From contig NZ_AP012330.1 of the NCBI RefSeq assembly GCF_001025215.1, positions 372,001 through 436,000 of the forward strand: DNA of 64,000 bases, given 5' to 3'. This stretch comes from Bifidobacterium pseudocatenulatum DSM 20438 = JCM 1200 = LMG 10505. GTDB lineage: Bacteria; Actinomycetota; Actinomycetes; Actinomycetales; Bifidobacteriaceae. The notes under the pieces were generated by a model, which did no database searches, was not told the DNA's origin, and saw nothing but the letters and a program-made list of their open reading frames with translations. The stretch's first letter is position 1. Every line of letters starts with the position of its first letter. Shown here piece by piece: positions 14,322-20,570 of the stretch. Made by a program: the position numbers and the translations under genes.

Positions 14322-14356
14322 GGAAACCCCGTTCGCCACAAGGCGGCGGGGTTTCC
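14322..14356 (+). terminator. Terminator after rplL
   Basis: GGAAACCCCG (14322-14331) pairs with CGGGGTTTCC (14347-14356), with an additional inner GCC/GGC pairing. Confidence 0.75.
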
Positions 14357-14547
14357 GCATATTCTCAGGTTTTTCTTTCGCTGACAATCCAATAAAACCC
14401 GATTTGGGCGTGAACGCTTCCATATCGTGCCATACAATGGGGGAAATAGGCGAAAGTTGTCAATTAATCGCGTCATAATCCTGAAATACGTGGCAAGGCA
14501 TGACACAATGGCAAAGAGTGTTGTGTGTGAAAGGAAGGCCGACAACG

Positions 14548-15957
14548 GTGAGCGAAGATCAACGAACGGCGCAGCAGTGGACCGTCAAGGTTGATGGAAC
14601 CGAACTCAAGAAGCTGGACAGCGGCGAAAGCGTGGAAATCGGCCGTAAGCCGTTACGTCCTCTGGTGGATGATGGATTCGCGCGACTTGACATTATGGAC
14701 GCAAACAAATCCATGTCGAAACGGCATGCCATTTTTTCAGTTGATGCGCAGGGCAATGCTTCCGTGCGTGATCTCAAGTCGACCAATGGTTCGTTCGTGG
14801 TGGCCGACAATGGCCAATTGATGCGTCTGCCGGCGGATGAGGATTTCCAATTGCCGACCACACCGATGACGCTGCAATTCGGTGACGTGCGCGTCACCTT
14901 CGAACGAGACATCGCACAGACAGTGCCTGAGACTGAGAGCCATGCGTCGGCTTCGGTCTCCAACCTGTTCTCCTACGCAGTGTCCGACGAGGTGCCGCAG
15001 GAGCCTGATGCGGTGGATATGTCGGTCGATGATATTCTCAACCTGCGTGCCGGCGAGCCGACCGCATTGTTCAACGCGCGCAACGTCGCCAATCGTGTTA
15101 ATTTCATGCAACTTGCCGAGCGTCAGTCTTTTGCTCCCGTCCGTTCCAACGAGCCGGATTATGGAGATTTGCCGTCTGTTTCGCTGGTGCAGCATAACGT
15201 GGTCGCAGACAATACTCCGCGCGACCTGTTCGCGGATGCCGTGGCGGAACAGCAGGCCGCGGAGGAAGCCGCCAAGAAAAACGCTGCGGAAAACGAACAT
15301 GAAGCGAATCAGCCGGAATCCGTGCAGGAAGTCGCATTGCCGACGCAAACCGCAACAGGTAACGAAACCGAGCATGACACGATTCCCGTGAGCAAGCTGT
15401 TCAGCGCGCATCCGAGTAAACCGATTATCGTGGCGTTGCCGGCTGAAGACAACAATATGTCGGAACAGCAGACAGAAGCATCGCACGAGCAGTCCAACGA
15501 AATAGGGGAGCAGTCTGCCACGATCGTGGAGCAGACAAACGACGAAACTCCAAGCCAAGAGGAAACAGCGTTGCAGCAGGCCGATGATGAGCGCTTCAGG
15601 CCACATGCTACACAATCGCAGGTTGCGAGCGAACCGTCGCCGGACGAAACCAGCGCGTTCAAGCCTGTTTTCGAACCCGGATCAGTGTTCGACCGCGTTT
15701 CCAAGGGCGAGCTCGTCAAGCAGGAGCAGACCATCGAAGTCGACGGGCTGACTTCGGATGATGCCAAGCGCACCGACGATTTCACCGTGCAGTTCGAGAT
15801 GGCGCGTCATCCGGAACTGCTGCCATTCCTTGCCATGAACCCGTCACTATATGACGATCTGTATGCATGGCTGGGCGCATTGGGCAATACAGACATCGAC
15901 GCGGCCCTGTCACATAATCCGGGGTATACGGAATACCGTAAAGCGGTAGGGAAGTGA
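14548..15957 (+). CDS. FHA-domain protein with C-terminal variant leucine-rich region
   Basis: Cytoplasmic protein of 469 residues. The N-terminal forkhead-associated domain (about 10-120) has the phosphothreonine-binding signature GR at 32-33, S57 and H60 (SMSKRH), and STNG at 78-81, so it should bind a phosphothreonine partner. The middle (about 150-400) is acidic, Gln/Glu-rich and probably disordered. The C-terminus (ARHPELLPFLAMNPSLYDDL) resembles the actinobacterial LRV_2 repeat. GTG 14548 was chosen because AAGGAAGG lies 9 bases before it; a longer frame starts at 14500. The stop overlaps the GTG of the helicase-like gene. The function is unknown; a Ser/Thr-kinase-regulated adaptor for the next gene is an inference. 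Confidence 0.8.
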   Translation: MSEDQRTAQQWTVKVDGTELKKLDSGESVEIGRKPLRPLVDDGFARLDIMDANKSMSKRHAIFSVDAQGNASVRDLKSTNGSFVVADNGQLMRLPADEDFQLPTTPMTLQFGDVRVTFERDIAQTVPETESHASASVSNLFSYAVSDEVPQEPDAVDMSVDDILNLRAGEPTALFNARNVANRVNFMQLAERQSFAPVRSNEPDYGDLPSVSLVQHNVVADNTPRDLFADAVAEQQAAEEAAKKNAAENEHEANQPESVQEVALPTQTATGNETEHDTIPVSKLFSAHPSKPIIVALPAEDNNMSEQQTEASHEQSNEIGEQSATIVEQTNDETPSQEETALQQADDERFRPHATQSQVASEPSPDETSAFKPVFEPGSVFDRVSKGELVKQEQTIEVDGLTSDDAKRTDDFTVQFEMARHPELLPFLAMNPSLYDDLYAWLGALGNTDIDAALSHNPGYTEYRKAVGK

Positions 15958-18900
15958 GCCAACACATGAGCGAAAGCAAAGAGAACGTCACTGAGCTGGA
16001 TCGTATTCGTGGGTGGCGTGAGAAGTATCGTCTTGGCCTGTCGCCGTCGCCGCTTGAGGATGTGACGCAGCTGAGTGCCCAACTTGATATGACGCACGCG
16101 CACCCGTCCGGCATCGCGCAGCTATTCGCCAGCGGGCATGTTCAGCTCAATTCCTTGTTCCGTGACAATGGCATGTTACGTGCCGCGGGTCGTCGTGTGG
16201 AACGTGTGCTTGATGACCGTGAGGCGAAAAGCCGTGTCAGCGGCGTGGGCGAATTGTCTTTGGTGGTCGGCGTGGCCATTTGGAAGGGCAATCAGATGCC
16301 GGTGCTCATGTACCCGGTCGAAGTGCGCAAAGAAGGCCGCAATATCGAAAACGGCACGGTGATCGCATTCACAGGGCGTGTACGTCTGAACGCGGCTTTC
16401 GCGGCCGTGCTGCGCGAGAACAACGTCATATTGGATGAGGCCAAGCTGTTTGACGGTTCGAACTATGAGAGCGGCACGCCAGAGACGTCCGCGGTGTTCG
16501 CGGCCATTACGGATCGTGCGGCCAACGCGTTCCCCGATTTTGAGATCGAACGGCACATTATTCTCGGGTGCTTTATGGATCCGGCGTCGCAGATGCTGGT
16601 GGAAAGCCAGAAAATCATCGATCAGTTGGCCCAAGGTCCGACCGGCAACACCGCTTTGGACGCTTTGGCTGGAGACAAGGCCGCCGCTGAAGCATTGGAG
16701 GGGGCTGAGATTCCGGAATACAGCCCGTTCGATGCCGATCCGCATGGCGAGTATGAGGTCGGCGATATCGACAATACCGTCCGATACGCTTCGCAACTTG
16801 CGTCCGCGGGCCATTCGTTGTTTGTGGATAGCTCGATTGCTAACAATACCGCCGAGCAGGCTGCCGCGATCGCATCCCGTTGTGTGATGAACGGGCGTTC
16901 CGTGCTTTATGTGCCGTGCGTGACCGATCAGAAACGTCGATTTGTGCAGGCCGTCGCCGCGAATGAGATGAGTGGACAGTTGTTGGATATCGCCGATGAC
17001 GGTGCCAATGCGGCTATTGATCGTCAATTGATTGCCGCTGTTGGATTCCAATCCGGTGTTGCTTCGTCTCGATTTGATCAGATTTCCGACGAATTGGTTG
17101 GTGTGCGCTCCCGTTTGACCCGTTATCTGGGCGATCTTCATGGCGTGAGCCAGGAGTGGGGCGTATCCGCCTACCAGACGATTCAGAATCTCGCTCAGAT
17201 CGCGGCGCTACCCACCCATCCGACCACGCACGTGCGTTTGAGTAAGCAGACTGCGCATTCCATTGCGGACAAGATCGAGGATTGGGCTGCGAAACTGCAG
17301 CGTGCGGGTGAGCTTGGCGAATACACCATCACGGAGAACGACACCGCATGGTACAAGGCTTCGCTGTATTCCGAAGAGGAAGCGGTGAGTGCTTACCAGC
17401 GTGTGGTCGAACTGTTGCGCAAGGTGCTGCCCGCCACCCGTGAGCAGGTGGCCAGCACGGTGCAGACCTGCGGATTCCCGATTCCAACGACCGCACAGGA
17501 GTGGGGGCGCCAGGTCATGGTGCTGAAGAACCTGCGCCGAGTGCTTGACGTGTTCCAGCCGGAAATCTTCGAACGTGACATCGCATCCATGATTGAGGCG
17601 ACCAAGCCGAAGGCCGAACGCAAGGCCGAAGGCAGTTCCATGGGATTCTGGGAGCGTCGCCGCCACATCAAGGAAGCCAAGGGCATGCTGCGCGTCGGTG
17701 CCCAAGTGGAGAACCTGCACGAGGCGTTGCTTGTGGTGTCCAAGCAGGCCGATCAGTGGCATATGTTCGTGCCTCATGGCGGCTGGCCGGTGCTGCCCAC
17801 CAAGCTGGATGACATCATCGAAACGCAGGAGAATCTCAATCGGGATATGACCGCGTTGAATGCGGTGCTTGCCACAACCCCGCAGGGAGGCAATCTCGAA
17901 ACCATTGACTTCAACCAGGTCGAAGAGCGTTTGAAGGCCCTGTATGACGACAAGCAGGCGCTTGACAATCTGCCGGAGCGCGCCCGTTTGGAGCGTGACT
18001 TCCACTCGGTTGGTCTTGACGAGCTGATTGAGGATTTGAACAATCGTGGTATTCCCAACGATGCCGTTGCAGGGGAACTGCAGTTGGCATGGTGGACCAC
18101 GGCGTTCGAGGATATTGTGAAATCCTCCGCCATTATCTCCAACCAGGATGGTTCGGCATTGCAGGGCGCTGCGGAACGCTTCGCCCAAGTCGACGTGGAG
18201 CACGTGCGTTCGATCGGGCCGATGGTGGCACAGGAATCCATGCGTCGCCTGTGCGACATGCTGTTCTCGCGTACGCAGGAAGCCAATCTGCTGCATACCA
18301 TGCTTGCCGGCTCCCACAACGTTTCGTTGAATCGCCTGCACAAGGAGCATCCGCAGATTCTCGCAGCGGCGAAACCGATTCTTGTTGCGACGCCCGCCAC
18401 ACTTGCAGCGATCACCGATCCGGCGCCGTTAGCTGACGTCGTCATCATCGATGCAGCCGCGCATATCCAGTCCATCGAATTGCTGAGCATCATCAGCCGT
18501 GCCAAGCAGGTGGTGGTGATCGCACATCGTGAAACAGTCACATCCGATGGTCTGAAGCGTCTTATCGCACTGCTACCGAGCGTAAAAATCGCCAATCGTC
18601 CTGTTCGACGCGCTCCGAAGCTCAATGCGTTCCTGGAATCGGAAGGCTATGGCTCCGTACCTTTCGACGTGGCAAGAGAAGGCGCGCAAGGCGAGATCGC
18701 CTACCATTTCGTACCTGACGCCAACGGTGTGCCGGTCATCACTTCGGGACTGGTGGAAAGCAGCCAGCAGGAGATCGACGAGGTGGTCAGGCTGATCACC
18801 AAGCGCGCCGCCGGTTTTACCATTGTGCCCGCATCATACATGCTTACGGTGGTGACGCTTACGCATACGTTCCGCACCCGACTGGGGGCAGAGCTCAAGG

Positions 18901-19586
18901 CCATCGCCAACAAGAACAAGGCCATGGGCATGTTCCTTCGCCATGTGCGCATCGTGGATATCTCCGACGTGGCCGGAGCGCATGCCACTGATGCGATTCT
19001 TGCGATGTGCTATGCGAAAACCTCCCATGGGCGCCTACTGCAGCAGTTCGGAGCGTTGGAATCCGAAGGCGGGCGAGGCATGCTGCTGGACGCATTGGCC
19101 GTGCCGGACCGCCATCTTGACATCGTGTCCGCGTTCTCGTCGTCCGACATGGATGACGAACGTCTGCATCAGGCTGGTCCGAAGATGCTGAAGACCGTGC
19201 TTCGTTGGATGGAACAGCTTGATGACAGCGTGGTGCGTCCCGCCGTCAAGATGACCGGCTCGAACGTGCTTCTCAACGATCTTGCCGATCGCATTCGAGC
19301 CCGTGGGCTGAATGTGGCCGTCGATTATGGTTTCGACAATGGATCCAAGCTGCCGCTGGTGGTTGGTCTGAACGACAAGCCGTTCGCGTTGGCGGTGCTC
19401 ACCGACGATGCGCAATTCATGGGATTGCAGTCCACCAGGGAACGTCACCGTGTGCTTTTGCAGAACATCGAATCGCTTGGCTGGTCTGTTATGACCGTGT
19501 GGAGCGTTGGCGCGTTCGTGAATCCAGACAAGGAAGTGGACCGTATCGTGGCACGCCTGAGCGACCTGTATCAGGAGGTCAAGTGA
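15954..19586 (+). CDS. Large helicase-like protein with degenerate ATPase and nuclease motifs
   Basis: 1210 residues, unrecognised by name. The overall plan resembles DUF4011/AAA_11-type superfamily 1 helicases with a C-terminal Vsr-like (MTES_1575) nuclease domain. The N-terminal GELSLVVGVAIWKGNQMPVL and the RLNAAFAAVLRE segment match their N-domain. However, the expected Walker A is replaced by GHSLFVDSSIANNTAEQ (about residue 284), Walker B is VVIIDAAAH (about 829), and the C-terminal fold (about 1120-1200, ending LESLGW-like IESLGWSVMTVWSVGAF) lacks an evident catalytic Asp/Glu-Lys set. It is thus probably a pseudo-helicase scaffold. The start overlaps the FHA gene stop; ATG 15966 is an alternative. 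Confidence 0.7.
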   Translation: MSQHMSESKENVTELDRIRGWREKYRLGLSPSPLEDVTQLSAQLDMTHAHPSGIAQLFASGHVQLNSLFRDNGMLRAAGRRVERVLDDREAKSRVSGVGELSLVVGVAIWKGNQMPVLMYPVEVRKEGRNIENGTVIAFTGRVRLNAAFAAVLRENNVILDEAKLFDGSNYESGTPETSAVFAAITDRAANAFPDFEIERHIILGCFMDPASQMLVESQKIIDQLAQGPTGNTALDALAGDKAAAEALEGAEIPEYSPFDADPHGEYEVGDIDNTVRYASQLASAGHSLFVDSSIANNTAEQAAAIASRCVMNGRSVLYVPCVTDQKRRFVQAVAANEMSGQLLDIADDGANAAIDRQLIAAVGFQSGVASSRFDQISDELVGVRSRLTRYLGDLHGVSQEWGVSAYQTIQNLAQIAALPTHPTTHVRLSKQTAHSIADKIEDWAAKLQRAGELGEYTITENDTAWYKASLYSEEEAVSAYQRVVELLRKVLPATREQVASTVQTCGFPIPTTAQEWGRQVMVLKNLRRVLDVFQPEIFERDIASMIEATKPKAERKAEGSSMGFWERRRHIKEAKGMLRVGAQVENLHEALLVVSKQADQWHMFVPHGGWPVLPTKLDDIIETQENLNRDMTALNAVLATTPQGGNLETIDFNQVEERLKALYDDKQALDNLPERARLERDFHSVGLDELIEDLNNRGIPNDAVAGELQLAWWTTAFEDIVKSSAIISNQDGSALQGAAERFAQVDVEHVRSIGPMVAQESMRRLCDMLFSRTQEANLLHTMLAGSHNVSLNRLHKEHPQILAAAKPILVATPATLAAITDPAPLADVVIIDAAAHIQSIELLSIISRAKQVVVIAHRETVTSDGLKRLIALLPSVKIANRPVRRAPKLNAFLESEGYGSVPFDVAREGAQGEIAYHFVPDANGVPVITSGLVESSQQEIDEVVRLITKRAAGFTIVPASYMLTVVTLTHTFRTRLGAELKAIANKNKAMGMFLRHVRIVDISDVAGAHATDAILAMCYAKTSHGRLLQQFGALESEGGRGMLLDALAVPDRHLDIVSAFSSSDMDDERLHQAGPKMLKTVLRWMEQLDDSVVRPAVKMTGSNVLLNDLADRIRARGLNVAVDYGFDNGSKLPLVVGLNDKPFALAVLTDDAQFMGLQSTRERHRVLLQNIESLGWSVMTVWSVGAFVNPDKEVDRIVARLSDLYQEVK

Positions 19587-19852
19587 GCGTCGACGAGCAT
19601 TCTCCGCAGGAGTCTTCCCAGGAAACTGACCAGCCTGCCGTTCGCGTGGTGTCCGGCTATTGCGCCACTCGCCGAACGGCACGCAGGCACAAGCGTGTGA
19701 TCCGCCAGGGCACTGAGCTGTTCGATGCGGACGGCGTTAAGCTCGAACCGTCCGATGTGCTCACCGAACGTCAGCGCAATGCGGATGACGACAAGCGTAT
19801 TCTGGGTGAACTGCCGCCGCATTGGGGCGTGTTCTCCGAGAGGGGACGCTGA
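19583..19852 (+). CDS. Small basic hypothetical protein, third gene of the FHA operon
   Basis: 89 residues, not recognised. An acidic N-terminus (VDEHSPQESSQETDQPA) is followed by a basic patch (ATRRTARRHKRVIRQG) and a C-terminal LGELPPHWGVFSERGR. GTG 19583 overlaps the stop of the helicase-like gene and follows AGGAGG (19573-19578), which fixes the start and shows translational coupling. The basic patch suggests nucleic acid or acidic-protein contact, but no function can be assigned. Its coupling to the FHA and helicase-like genes implies a shared process. Confidence 0.75.
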   Translation: MSVDEHSPQESSQETDQPAVRVVSGYCATRRTARRHKRVIRQGTELFDADGVKLEPSDVLTERQRNADDDKRILGELPPHWGVFSERGR

Positions 19853-19880: not shown

Positions 19881-20570
19881 TCACGAACTGACGATGGCGA
19901 TAATCGCGCTGTTCTCTTGAGCCTGCAAAACGGTCGCCGCTTCATGAGGAGGCATGGCAAACACCGCAAGGGTGTTGCCGTCCGCATCGCGCGAGGGTTT
20001 CGCGGTCAGGATCGCGCCCGAGCATAATTCGCGCAGCGTCACGGCATCTGTATCCGGGGATGTTTCCGGTGTTGCCTCGCCGAATATCGTGGCGCTGGAA
20101 AGTGTCACGACATCGCCAAGCGACAGATTGTCGGCGGAACTTGCCAATCGCACTTCGATTACCGTGTATCCTTCGGAAACAACGGGAGAGGCACGCGCCA
20201 TGGTCGACGTGACGATGCCGCCTTCCGCAACGTCCACTTGGGCGATTAGCCCGACGGCATCGGCGCAATCATGGAAAACGTTACGTAAGGCCTTGTCATA
20301 CGGAAGATCGCGCAATGCGAGCGAATCCGCGGTAATCACGCTGCCTTTCGCAATGGGCTGCGCTGCGATGACAACCGGTTGCGTGGAAATCGTCAATCGC
20401 ACGCACTGCAGGGCTGCGAACATGGCAAGTCCGGCACAGACCGCGGCGAGCAGCCGGTGCAATCGTGCATTCTTCCGTCGCCGATGGGGCGCAGTCCTCG
20501 TGCCATCGGTCGTTCGCCTGCCATCCATGCCCTGCAGACGTTGCAACAAATCATGAAAAAAGGTCACCAT
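19881..20570 (-). CDS. SAF-domain membrane-anchored protein (CpaB/FlgA-like)
   Basis: 229 residues with a basic cytoplasmic head (about 1-40, RRRKNARLHR), one membrane segment (about 41-60, LLAAVCAGLAMFAALQ) and an extracytoplasmic SAF domain (VVIAAQPIAKGSVITADSLALRDLP) like that of CpaB/RcpC and FlgA. The C-terminus has a second beta-rich part. The actinobacterial homologue is commonly next to FmdB and 5-FCL genes, as here. No pilus genes are nearby, so a pilus role is not supported. A start at internal Met15 is possible. Confidence 0.75.
   Translation of the reverse strand: MVTFFHDLLQRLQGMDGRRTTDGTRTAPHRRRKNARLHRLLAAVCAGLAMFAALQCVRLTISTQPVVIAAQPIAKGSVITADSLALRDLPYDKALRNVFHDCADAVGLIAQVDVAEGGIVTSTMARASPVVSEGYTVIEVRLASSADNLSLGDVVTLSSATIFGEATPETSPDTDAVTLRELCSGAILTAKPSRDADGNTLAVFAMPPHEAATVLQAQENSAIIAIVSS

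Follow-up and report, generated by a model that had tools for sequence, protein, structure and literature searches.

Pseudohelicases, in which a helicase fold is present without ATPase, are rarely named in print in the literature that we searched. The nearest worked bacterial case that we found, as far as the accessible text goes, is PriA of Deinococcus radiodurans, which keeps DNA binding without ATPase and for which there is evidence of contact with DnaB (PMC4504706). Here we describe a gene in the window (the whole 64,000-nucleotide stretch analysed, positions 372,001 to 436,000 of contig NZ_AP012330.1 of Bifidobacterium pseudocatenulatum DSM 20438) for a protein with an SF1B helicase fold and a Vsr-like nuclease-like domain, both of which have lost catalytic residues. 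We call it the pseudohelicase (PH), and find it coupled to a gene for an FHA and LRV_2 domain protein on its 5′ side and a gene for a small PPHW-tailed protein, the miniprotein, on its 3′ side. PriA and yeast Utp25 share with PH a helicase fold without ATPase; they belong to other helicase families, and the accessible text on them mentions no nuclease remnant, miniprotein or FHA partner.

PH also resembles PDC-S37 (PADLOC), Hhe and ProA (NCBIfam), whose order of DUF4011, SF1 helicase and Vsr-like nuclease is found in intact relatives of PH that are homologous to it over nearly its whole length. However, the window PH lacks intact Walker A and Walker B motifs and the nuclease D ... E-x-D-G, is inherited at a single syntenic locus, and has the coupled PPHW miniprotein and the FHA partner. 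It misses the curated cut-offs of ProA (156.3 of 1500 bits) and Hhe (61 of 2000 bits), as do the intact relatives L038, L120 and L134. As it falls short on both the curated cut-offs and the catalytic features, we do not file the window PH under these systems. From the SF1B helicases UPF1, IGHMBP2, DNA2 and Senataxin the window protein differs by lacking the Walker A lysine, the Walker B glutamate and the motif VI arginine. Our literature search found no paper describing the module of PH, miniprotein and FHA protein, and nothing relevant on REase_MTES_1575, PPHW (among the 20 of 104 matches listed), PDC-S37, the mscL/SAF/FTHFS cluster or helicase-like proteins with a degenerate Walker A. A conserved DUF4011 gene flanks a Pseudomonas aeruginosa defence hotspot, according to the accessible part of one report (PMC10250203), and the accessible main text of a study of essentiality in Bifidobacterium breve UCC2003 (PMC5514069) makes no statement on the FHA gene, PH or the miniprotein.

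Catalytic residues, selection and distribution of the pseudohelicase

Aligned profile to profile, the Bifidobacteriaceae family and the intact members match with probability 100 (E 8e-115, 1178 columns), which bears out the SF1 helicase layout that an earlier note had read from this DNA. In this alignment VDSSIANNTAE of the family pairs with KGPPGTGKSQ of the intact members, the printed alignment stopping before Walker B. Within the window protein, GHSLFVDSSIANNTAEQ aligns with the P-loop GPPGTGKSQ and VVIIDAAAH with FDEASQ; both motifs had been called degenerate, and rightly so, the lysine of the one and the glutamate of the other being lost. The N-terminus aligns with the DUF4011-bearing part of the intact relatives, and Pfam gave no DUF4011 match in the window PH. 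At the C-terminus the proposed nuclease-like domain is present, though its score for the Vsr-like family MTES_1575 (PF18741) falls just below the gathering score (37.7 against 38.2 bits; the relative L032 reaches 44.8). Fascin and other sub-threshold Pfam matches were set aside.

We read the motif columns of aligned relatives against the intact member L038, the rows being a chosen sample of PH matches from which repeat loci of a genome were removed and in which the window's own genome is included. Data at motif I are available for 149 of 150 rows, and GK[ST] and DE occur together in the same eight (L038, L090, L120, L129, L134, L135, L147 and L155) and are absent from 141. Among the 65 family rows, the Walker A lysine position is T, S, A or N and never K, the Walker B glutamate and the motif III Q are found in none, and the motif VI R is found in five. 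A scan of the whole window protein found no P-loop pattern anywhere in it, and the one stray match among the family rows belongs to the divergent L104. P takes the place of the first nuclease D in all 65, the E of ExD survives in a single row and is mostly L or F, and the G of E-x-D-G is mostly D, in agreement with the view that no nuclease catalytic set is evident.

PH is under purifying selection, with a ratio of nonsynonymous to synonymous substitution (dN/dS) of 0.03-0.18 in eight pairs; the ratio is 0.18-0.28 for the FHA gene and 0.10-0.37 for the miniprotein where defined, all by simple counting, with high dS in distant pairs and with an upstream start used for some miniprotein open reading frames (ORFs). 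Over 62 family rows the former P-loop falls below the average in conservation (entropy 1.88 vs 1.31), although a few other blocks are worse, and blocks 261-280, 381-420, 521-540, 561-580, 601-620 and 1181-1200 are among the most conserved. The description of PH in the earlier note as catalytically dead and yet conserved thus agrees with the loss of catalytic residues, with purifying selection and with PH matches in 39 of 39 relatives.

PH matches were also found in 143 of 151 family genomes (128 of the 130 good ones) and in 61 of 296 class genomes, some of them weak or partial; a search of the order with the intact L038 protein gave matches, paralogues included, in 117 of 119 genomes. The two good family genomes without PH also lack an rplL match. 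Co-loss of all three genes in G045 and G092, which have no PH, no miniprotein and weak FHA matches, was considered and rejected: since the rplL match is missing there too, in a search run without a positive-control genome, an assembly gap is likelier.

All three genes occur together, by the rules used, in 60 of 66 Bifidobacteriaceae loci, and the set is therefore conserved across the family, a point that had been marked for checking. With the helicase fold present, no P-loop elsewhere in the protein and the genes found side by side, none of the outcomes that the earlier note had named as refuting its reading turned up. Outside the family, 27 of the 34 longer loci carry one or more of mscL, SAF and 5-FTHF cyclo-ligase downstream (the seven without are L036, L039, L043, L044, L120, L121 and L129), a neighbourhood common to intact (L038, L134 and L135) and dead members. 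In Actinomyces oris, where a PH with a dead P-loop is accompanied by a PPHWG-tailed small protein, the annotated order is DNA helicase, hypothetical protein, mscL, SAF, FTHFS, Glp and GNAT. The conserved block stands on a 415-kb A. oris record called a plasmid (L244, NZ_CP116225.1), perhaps because of a split replicon or a problem of assembly. A scan of named contigs for GTGKSQTI and LFVAEKRA, covering the best 80 of 582 and favouring intact P-loops by design, found an intact P-loop with a PPH tail and mscL behind it in seven of 80 loci (Knoellia sinensis, two Nostocoides, an Intrasporangiaceae metagenome-assembled genome, Pedococcus cremeus with a fused tail, Luteipulveratus and Flexivirga caeni), and neither PPH tail nor mscL nearby in, for example, Phycicoccus elongatus, Dactylosporangium, Actinomadura and Nonomuraea. 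Separately, an intact helicase-nuclease away from the mscL locus (L120:6707-10714) stands beside what we take to be an exonuclease-like gene and a P-loop NTPase-like gene; together they may form a defence island.

In a tree of 101 rows built without the motif columns, the dead rows fall into three maximal clades (of 82, 9 and 2 rows), which persist after collapsing forks under 80 or 95; this is a quick tree without bootstrap, rooted on L120/L129 by assumption and with long branches flagged. An earlier tree of 85 rows likewise required three state changes. We infer three or more losses of the ATPase on our tree, taking the direction from the canonical motifs of the intact relatives.

The miniprotein and the FHA-LRV_2 partner

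Of 149 rows, 114 have a PPH[WHYF]-tailed ORF with a possible start at most 130 nt from the PH stop, and 13 carry the tail as a fusion to PH; as a control, a PPH-tailed ORF stands behind 3 of 922 ORFs of at least 250 amino acids, which need not all be genes. The pairing of PH and miniprotein extends far beyond Bifidobacteriaceae. Of the 114 separate copies, 65 could begin at the same overlap of 4 nt, although choosing the candidate start closest to that place favours this outcome, and the fused or separate state switches six times among 82 labelled rows. The basic patch that had been noticed in the third gene (RRTARRHKRVIR) is present, and a stretch of 12 residues with at least four R/K is found in all 60 family copies and in 41 of the 54 others. 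The window copy has no Pfam match at E <= 1 and in NCBIfam just a sub-cut-off SLATT_2 match (11.7 of 40 bits), and three order or class copies have no Pfam or NCBIfam match at E <= 0.5. The predicted model of the miniprotein is poor (predicted local distance difference test score 66.7, predicted template modelling score 0.29) and was left unused.

The fused tails gave rise to the idea that the miniprotein split off from PH in Bifidobacteriaceae, which we reject given separate copies across the order and class. We also reject PPHW as a genome-wide C-terminal signal, the DDxxIL..LPPHW context occurring only in the miniprotein; CCNCCNCAYTGG has 20 matches in its own genome, compared to 9 for the reversed control. 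A small acidic protein with a PPHW tail (...DDTDxGWGExP...DDDERLxRExPPHW) lies near mscL/SAF in class genomes (L224-L241); it is widespread in actinomycetes, occurs also in genomes without PH, and has no family in the libraries tried.

The first gene passes the Pfam cut-offs for FHA (32.7 bits vs 20.7) and for LRV_2 (PF25591, 45.2 bits vs 27), as the earlier note had led us to expect of both domains. The FHA pocket pattern consists of R, S-x-x-H and N, and the pocket G-R ... S-x-x-H ... S-T-N-G is kept in every printed family row that covers it, some rows being partial, which suggests that the FHA protein is a phosphothreonine reader. The gene is found in 63 of 66 Bifidobacteriaceae loci and is missing in L102, L103 (tail fused) and L104. 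An FHA domain protein, which may or may not correspond to the gene in the window, is among the signatures of the Scardovia clade in the accessible part of one report (PMC4921777). Elsewhere, a second FHA gene adjoins an LRV_2-bearing ORF on the opposite strand (G000:C1:1767491-1768572), and opposite-strand FHA and LRV matches lie side by side also in G045, G048, G050, G072, G092 and G096.

Possible roles of the module

The explanation that we favour, giving it as a whole an even chance, is that PH is a non-catalytic scaffold with the miniprotein as an arm and, in Bifidobacteriaceae, with the FHA-LRV_2 protein as a partner. Its ancestor would have been an active SF1B helicase of DUF4011 type joined to a Vsr-like nuclease, probably of anti-phage type because the intact relatives match PDC-S37, Hhe and ProA, and would have become fixed beside mscL, SAF and 5-FTHF cyclo-ligase in an ancestor of Actinomycetales and some related actinomycetes. 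After fixation the catalytic residues of both domains would have gone, those of the ATPase on at least three occasions, with selection maintaining the fold and surfaces away from the ATP site; PH would most likely serve as a non-catalytic scaffold for binding either nucleic acid or a protein complex. The miniprotein, made in step with PH or fused to it, is probably a docking arm of the same complex, as overlap and fusion suggest, and the coupled FHA-LRV_2 protein, added in Bifidobacteriaceae, probably recruits a threonine-phosphorylated partner to the complex or removes one, as the kept pocket suggests. More tentatively, the module may be an old actinomycete housekeeping hub, in which the mscL locus captured a helicase-nuclease of anti-phage type that then shed both activities several times, the remaining scaffold presenting the PPHW arm to a conserved partner, and to which bifidobacteria would have added the FHA-LRV_2 adaptor as a form of Ser/Thr-kinase control.

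Several observations weigh against the scaffold explanation. The PPH tail was not found in 22 of 149 rows by the 130-nt rule, nine of which have a PPH-tailed ORF further away or just outside the rule. The miniprotein matches at E <= 1e-4 in 28 genomes, 20 of which are outside the 61 PH-matching class genomes, and in 13 of these 20 mscL or SAF is near it (a locus of 2.3-3.1 kb). Since genomes without a PH match have the miniprotein too, mostly near mscL or SAF, the link between the two is not exclusive; the miniprotein is probably older than the pairing, and the adjacency of the two may be partly an accident of gene order. It is accordingly conceivable, if somewhat doubtful, that the miniprotein is an independent protein of the mscL locus and that overlap and fusion reflect gene packing only, as five loci of family f35 with a PPH-tailed ORF 0.5-4.3 kb from PH would also suggest; the recurrent 4-nt overlap, for all that the choice of start favours it, the repeated fusion or splitting and the R/K-rich patch of every family copy argue for a closer tie. 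On the side of the FHA gene, the 4-nt overlap with PH exists in just 33 of 67 loci (repeat loci of a genome included), the genes being at most 20 nt apart in 31 of the 34 others, and none of the 34 longer non-family loci has the gene, a count of loci and not of whole genomes. The phospho-signalling proposed earlier therefore keeps its pocket and loses its reach: with the FHA gene seen only in Bifidobacteriaceae, it is unlikely as the ancestral role. Finally, 62 of 65 family rows retain the Walker B D and all 65 retain the second D of the nuclease ExD (as do 82 of 85 others), and the altered motif VI and nuclease E-TDD stretches have entropies (0.78 and 0.98) below the family mean of 1.31, which could reflect residual chemistry or ligand binding.

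That PH is outright active by non-canonical chemistry, through another ATP site or the kept nuclease D, is nevertheless very unlikely given the absence from all 65 family rows of the Walker A K, Walker B E, motif III Q and first nuclease D, and the absence of a P-loop pattern from the window protein. PH could also act on RNA, RNA polymerase or ribosomes, in the manner of UPF1 or HelD without ATP, rather than on DNA, which we consider rather unlikely. Less likely still, PH may remain an anti-phage component, a dead sensor or decoy of PDC-S37/Hhe/ProA type that is activated through partners. Intact relatives match PDC-S37 (8.3e-242 for L038), Hhe and the NCBIfam ProA, and the window PH itself matches PDC-S37 at 1.2e-50; however, defence genes are usually sporadic, whereas PH is matched in 39 of 39 relatives and in nearly all good family genomes, sits beside housekeeping-type neighbours conserved in most of the longer non-family loci, and is rarely carried by mobile elements (at least 80% query coverage in one of 62 plasmid records with a match; one weak match among phage records, none at that coverage). 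Hardly credible is a decaying gene without function, which the lost catalytic residues might suggest and which is already contradicted by the dN/dS values, by the lack of internal stops among the family-genome matches listed and by the single dead clade common to 82 of 101 tree rows.

A pseudohelicase is thus kept in many families of one actinomycete order, and orthologues in the same gene order retain the motifs. This offers a natural comparison with and without ATPase, for example Knoellia or Luteipulveratus against Bifidobacterium or Actinomyces, which asks what a helicase-nuclease does once unwinding and cutting stop, and it draws attention to a small protein that is widely conserved yet unnamed and, in gut commensals, to a possible link with kinases.

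Gene layout in the window

The coupled three-gene arrangement reported in the earlier note is real. Downstream of rplJ-rplL, the FHA-LRV_2 gene, PH and the miniprotein follow on the + strand, and both joints are the GTGA stop/start overlaps described, at 15954 and 19583. The features are collected in the table below. The GTG at 14548 that had been taken as the start of the first gene is in frame, although the frame is already open from the ATG at 14500. The exact start of PH is ambiguous (15954 or 15966), because an in-frame ATG at 15966 matches the ORF start of several relatives. Four bases separate the AGGAGG from the GTG of the miniprotein.

Table. Features of the three-gene module, in window positions
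Feature	Positions	Strand	Remarks
FHA + LRV_2 protein	14500..15957	+	485 aa; alternative GTG start 14548
FHA domain	14635..14826	+	residues 46-109; pocket G-R / S-x-x-H / S-T-N-G kept
LRV_2 domain	15790..15915	+	residues 431-472; E 9.3e-12
PH, SF1B helicase-like / Vsr-like nuclease-like protein without catalytic residues	15954..19586	+	1210 aa
Degenerate Walker A in PH	16827..16856	+	residues 292-301, DSSIANNTAE; pairs with GPPGTGKSQ of intact relatives
Degenerate Walker B in PH	18438..18464	+	residues 829-837, VVIIDAAAH; D kept, E lost
MTES_1575/Vsr-like domain of PH	19278..19559	+	residues 1109-1202
AGGAGG, Shine-Dalgarno-like, of miniprotein	19573..19578	+	inside last codons of PH
PPHW miniprotein	19583..19852	+	89 aa; start overlaps PH stop (GTGA)
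Miniprotein basic patch RRTARRHKRVIR	19670..19705	+	
Miniprotein PPHW tail DDDKRILGELPPHWGVF	19784..19834	+	resembles C-terminal tail of fused PH relatives

The stretch between rplL and the FHA gene holds an inverted repeat (14322-14356), read by eye and absent from the repeat-scan listing, with a T-rich run about 14 bases beyond it. The repeat resembles part of a terminator, and the three genes may therefore be a transcription unit of their own. On the other side, a SAF/CpaB-like protein encoded at 19881-20570 on the - strand, a member of the conserved neighbour block, is convergent with the miniprotein.

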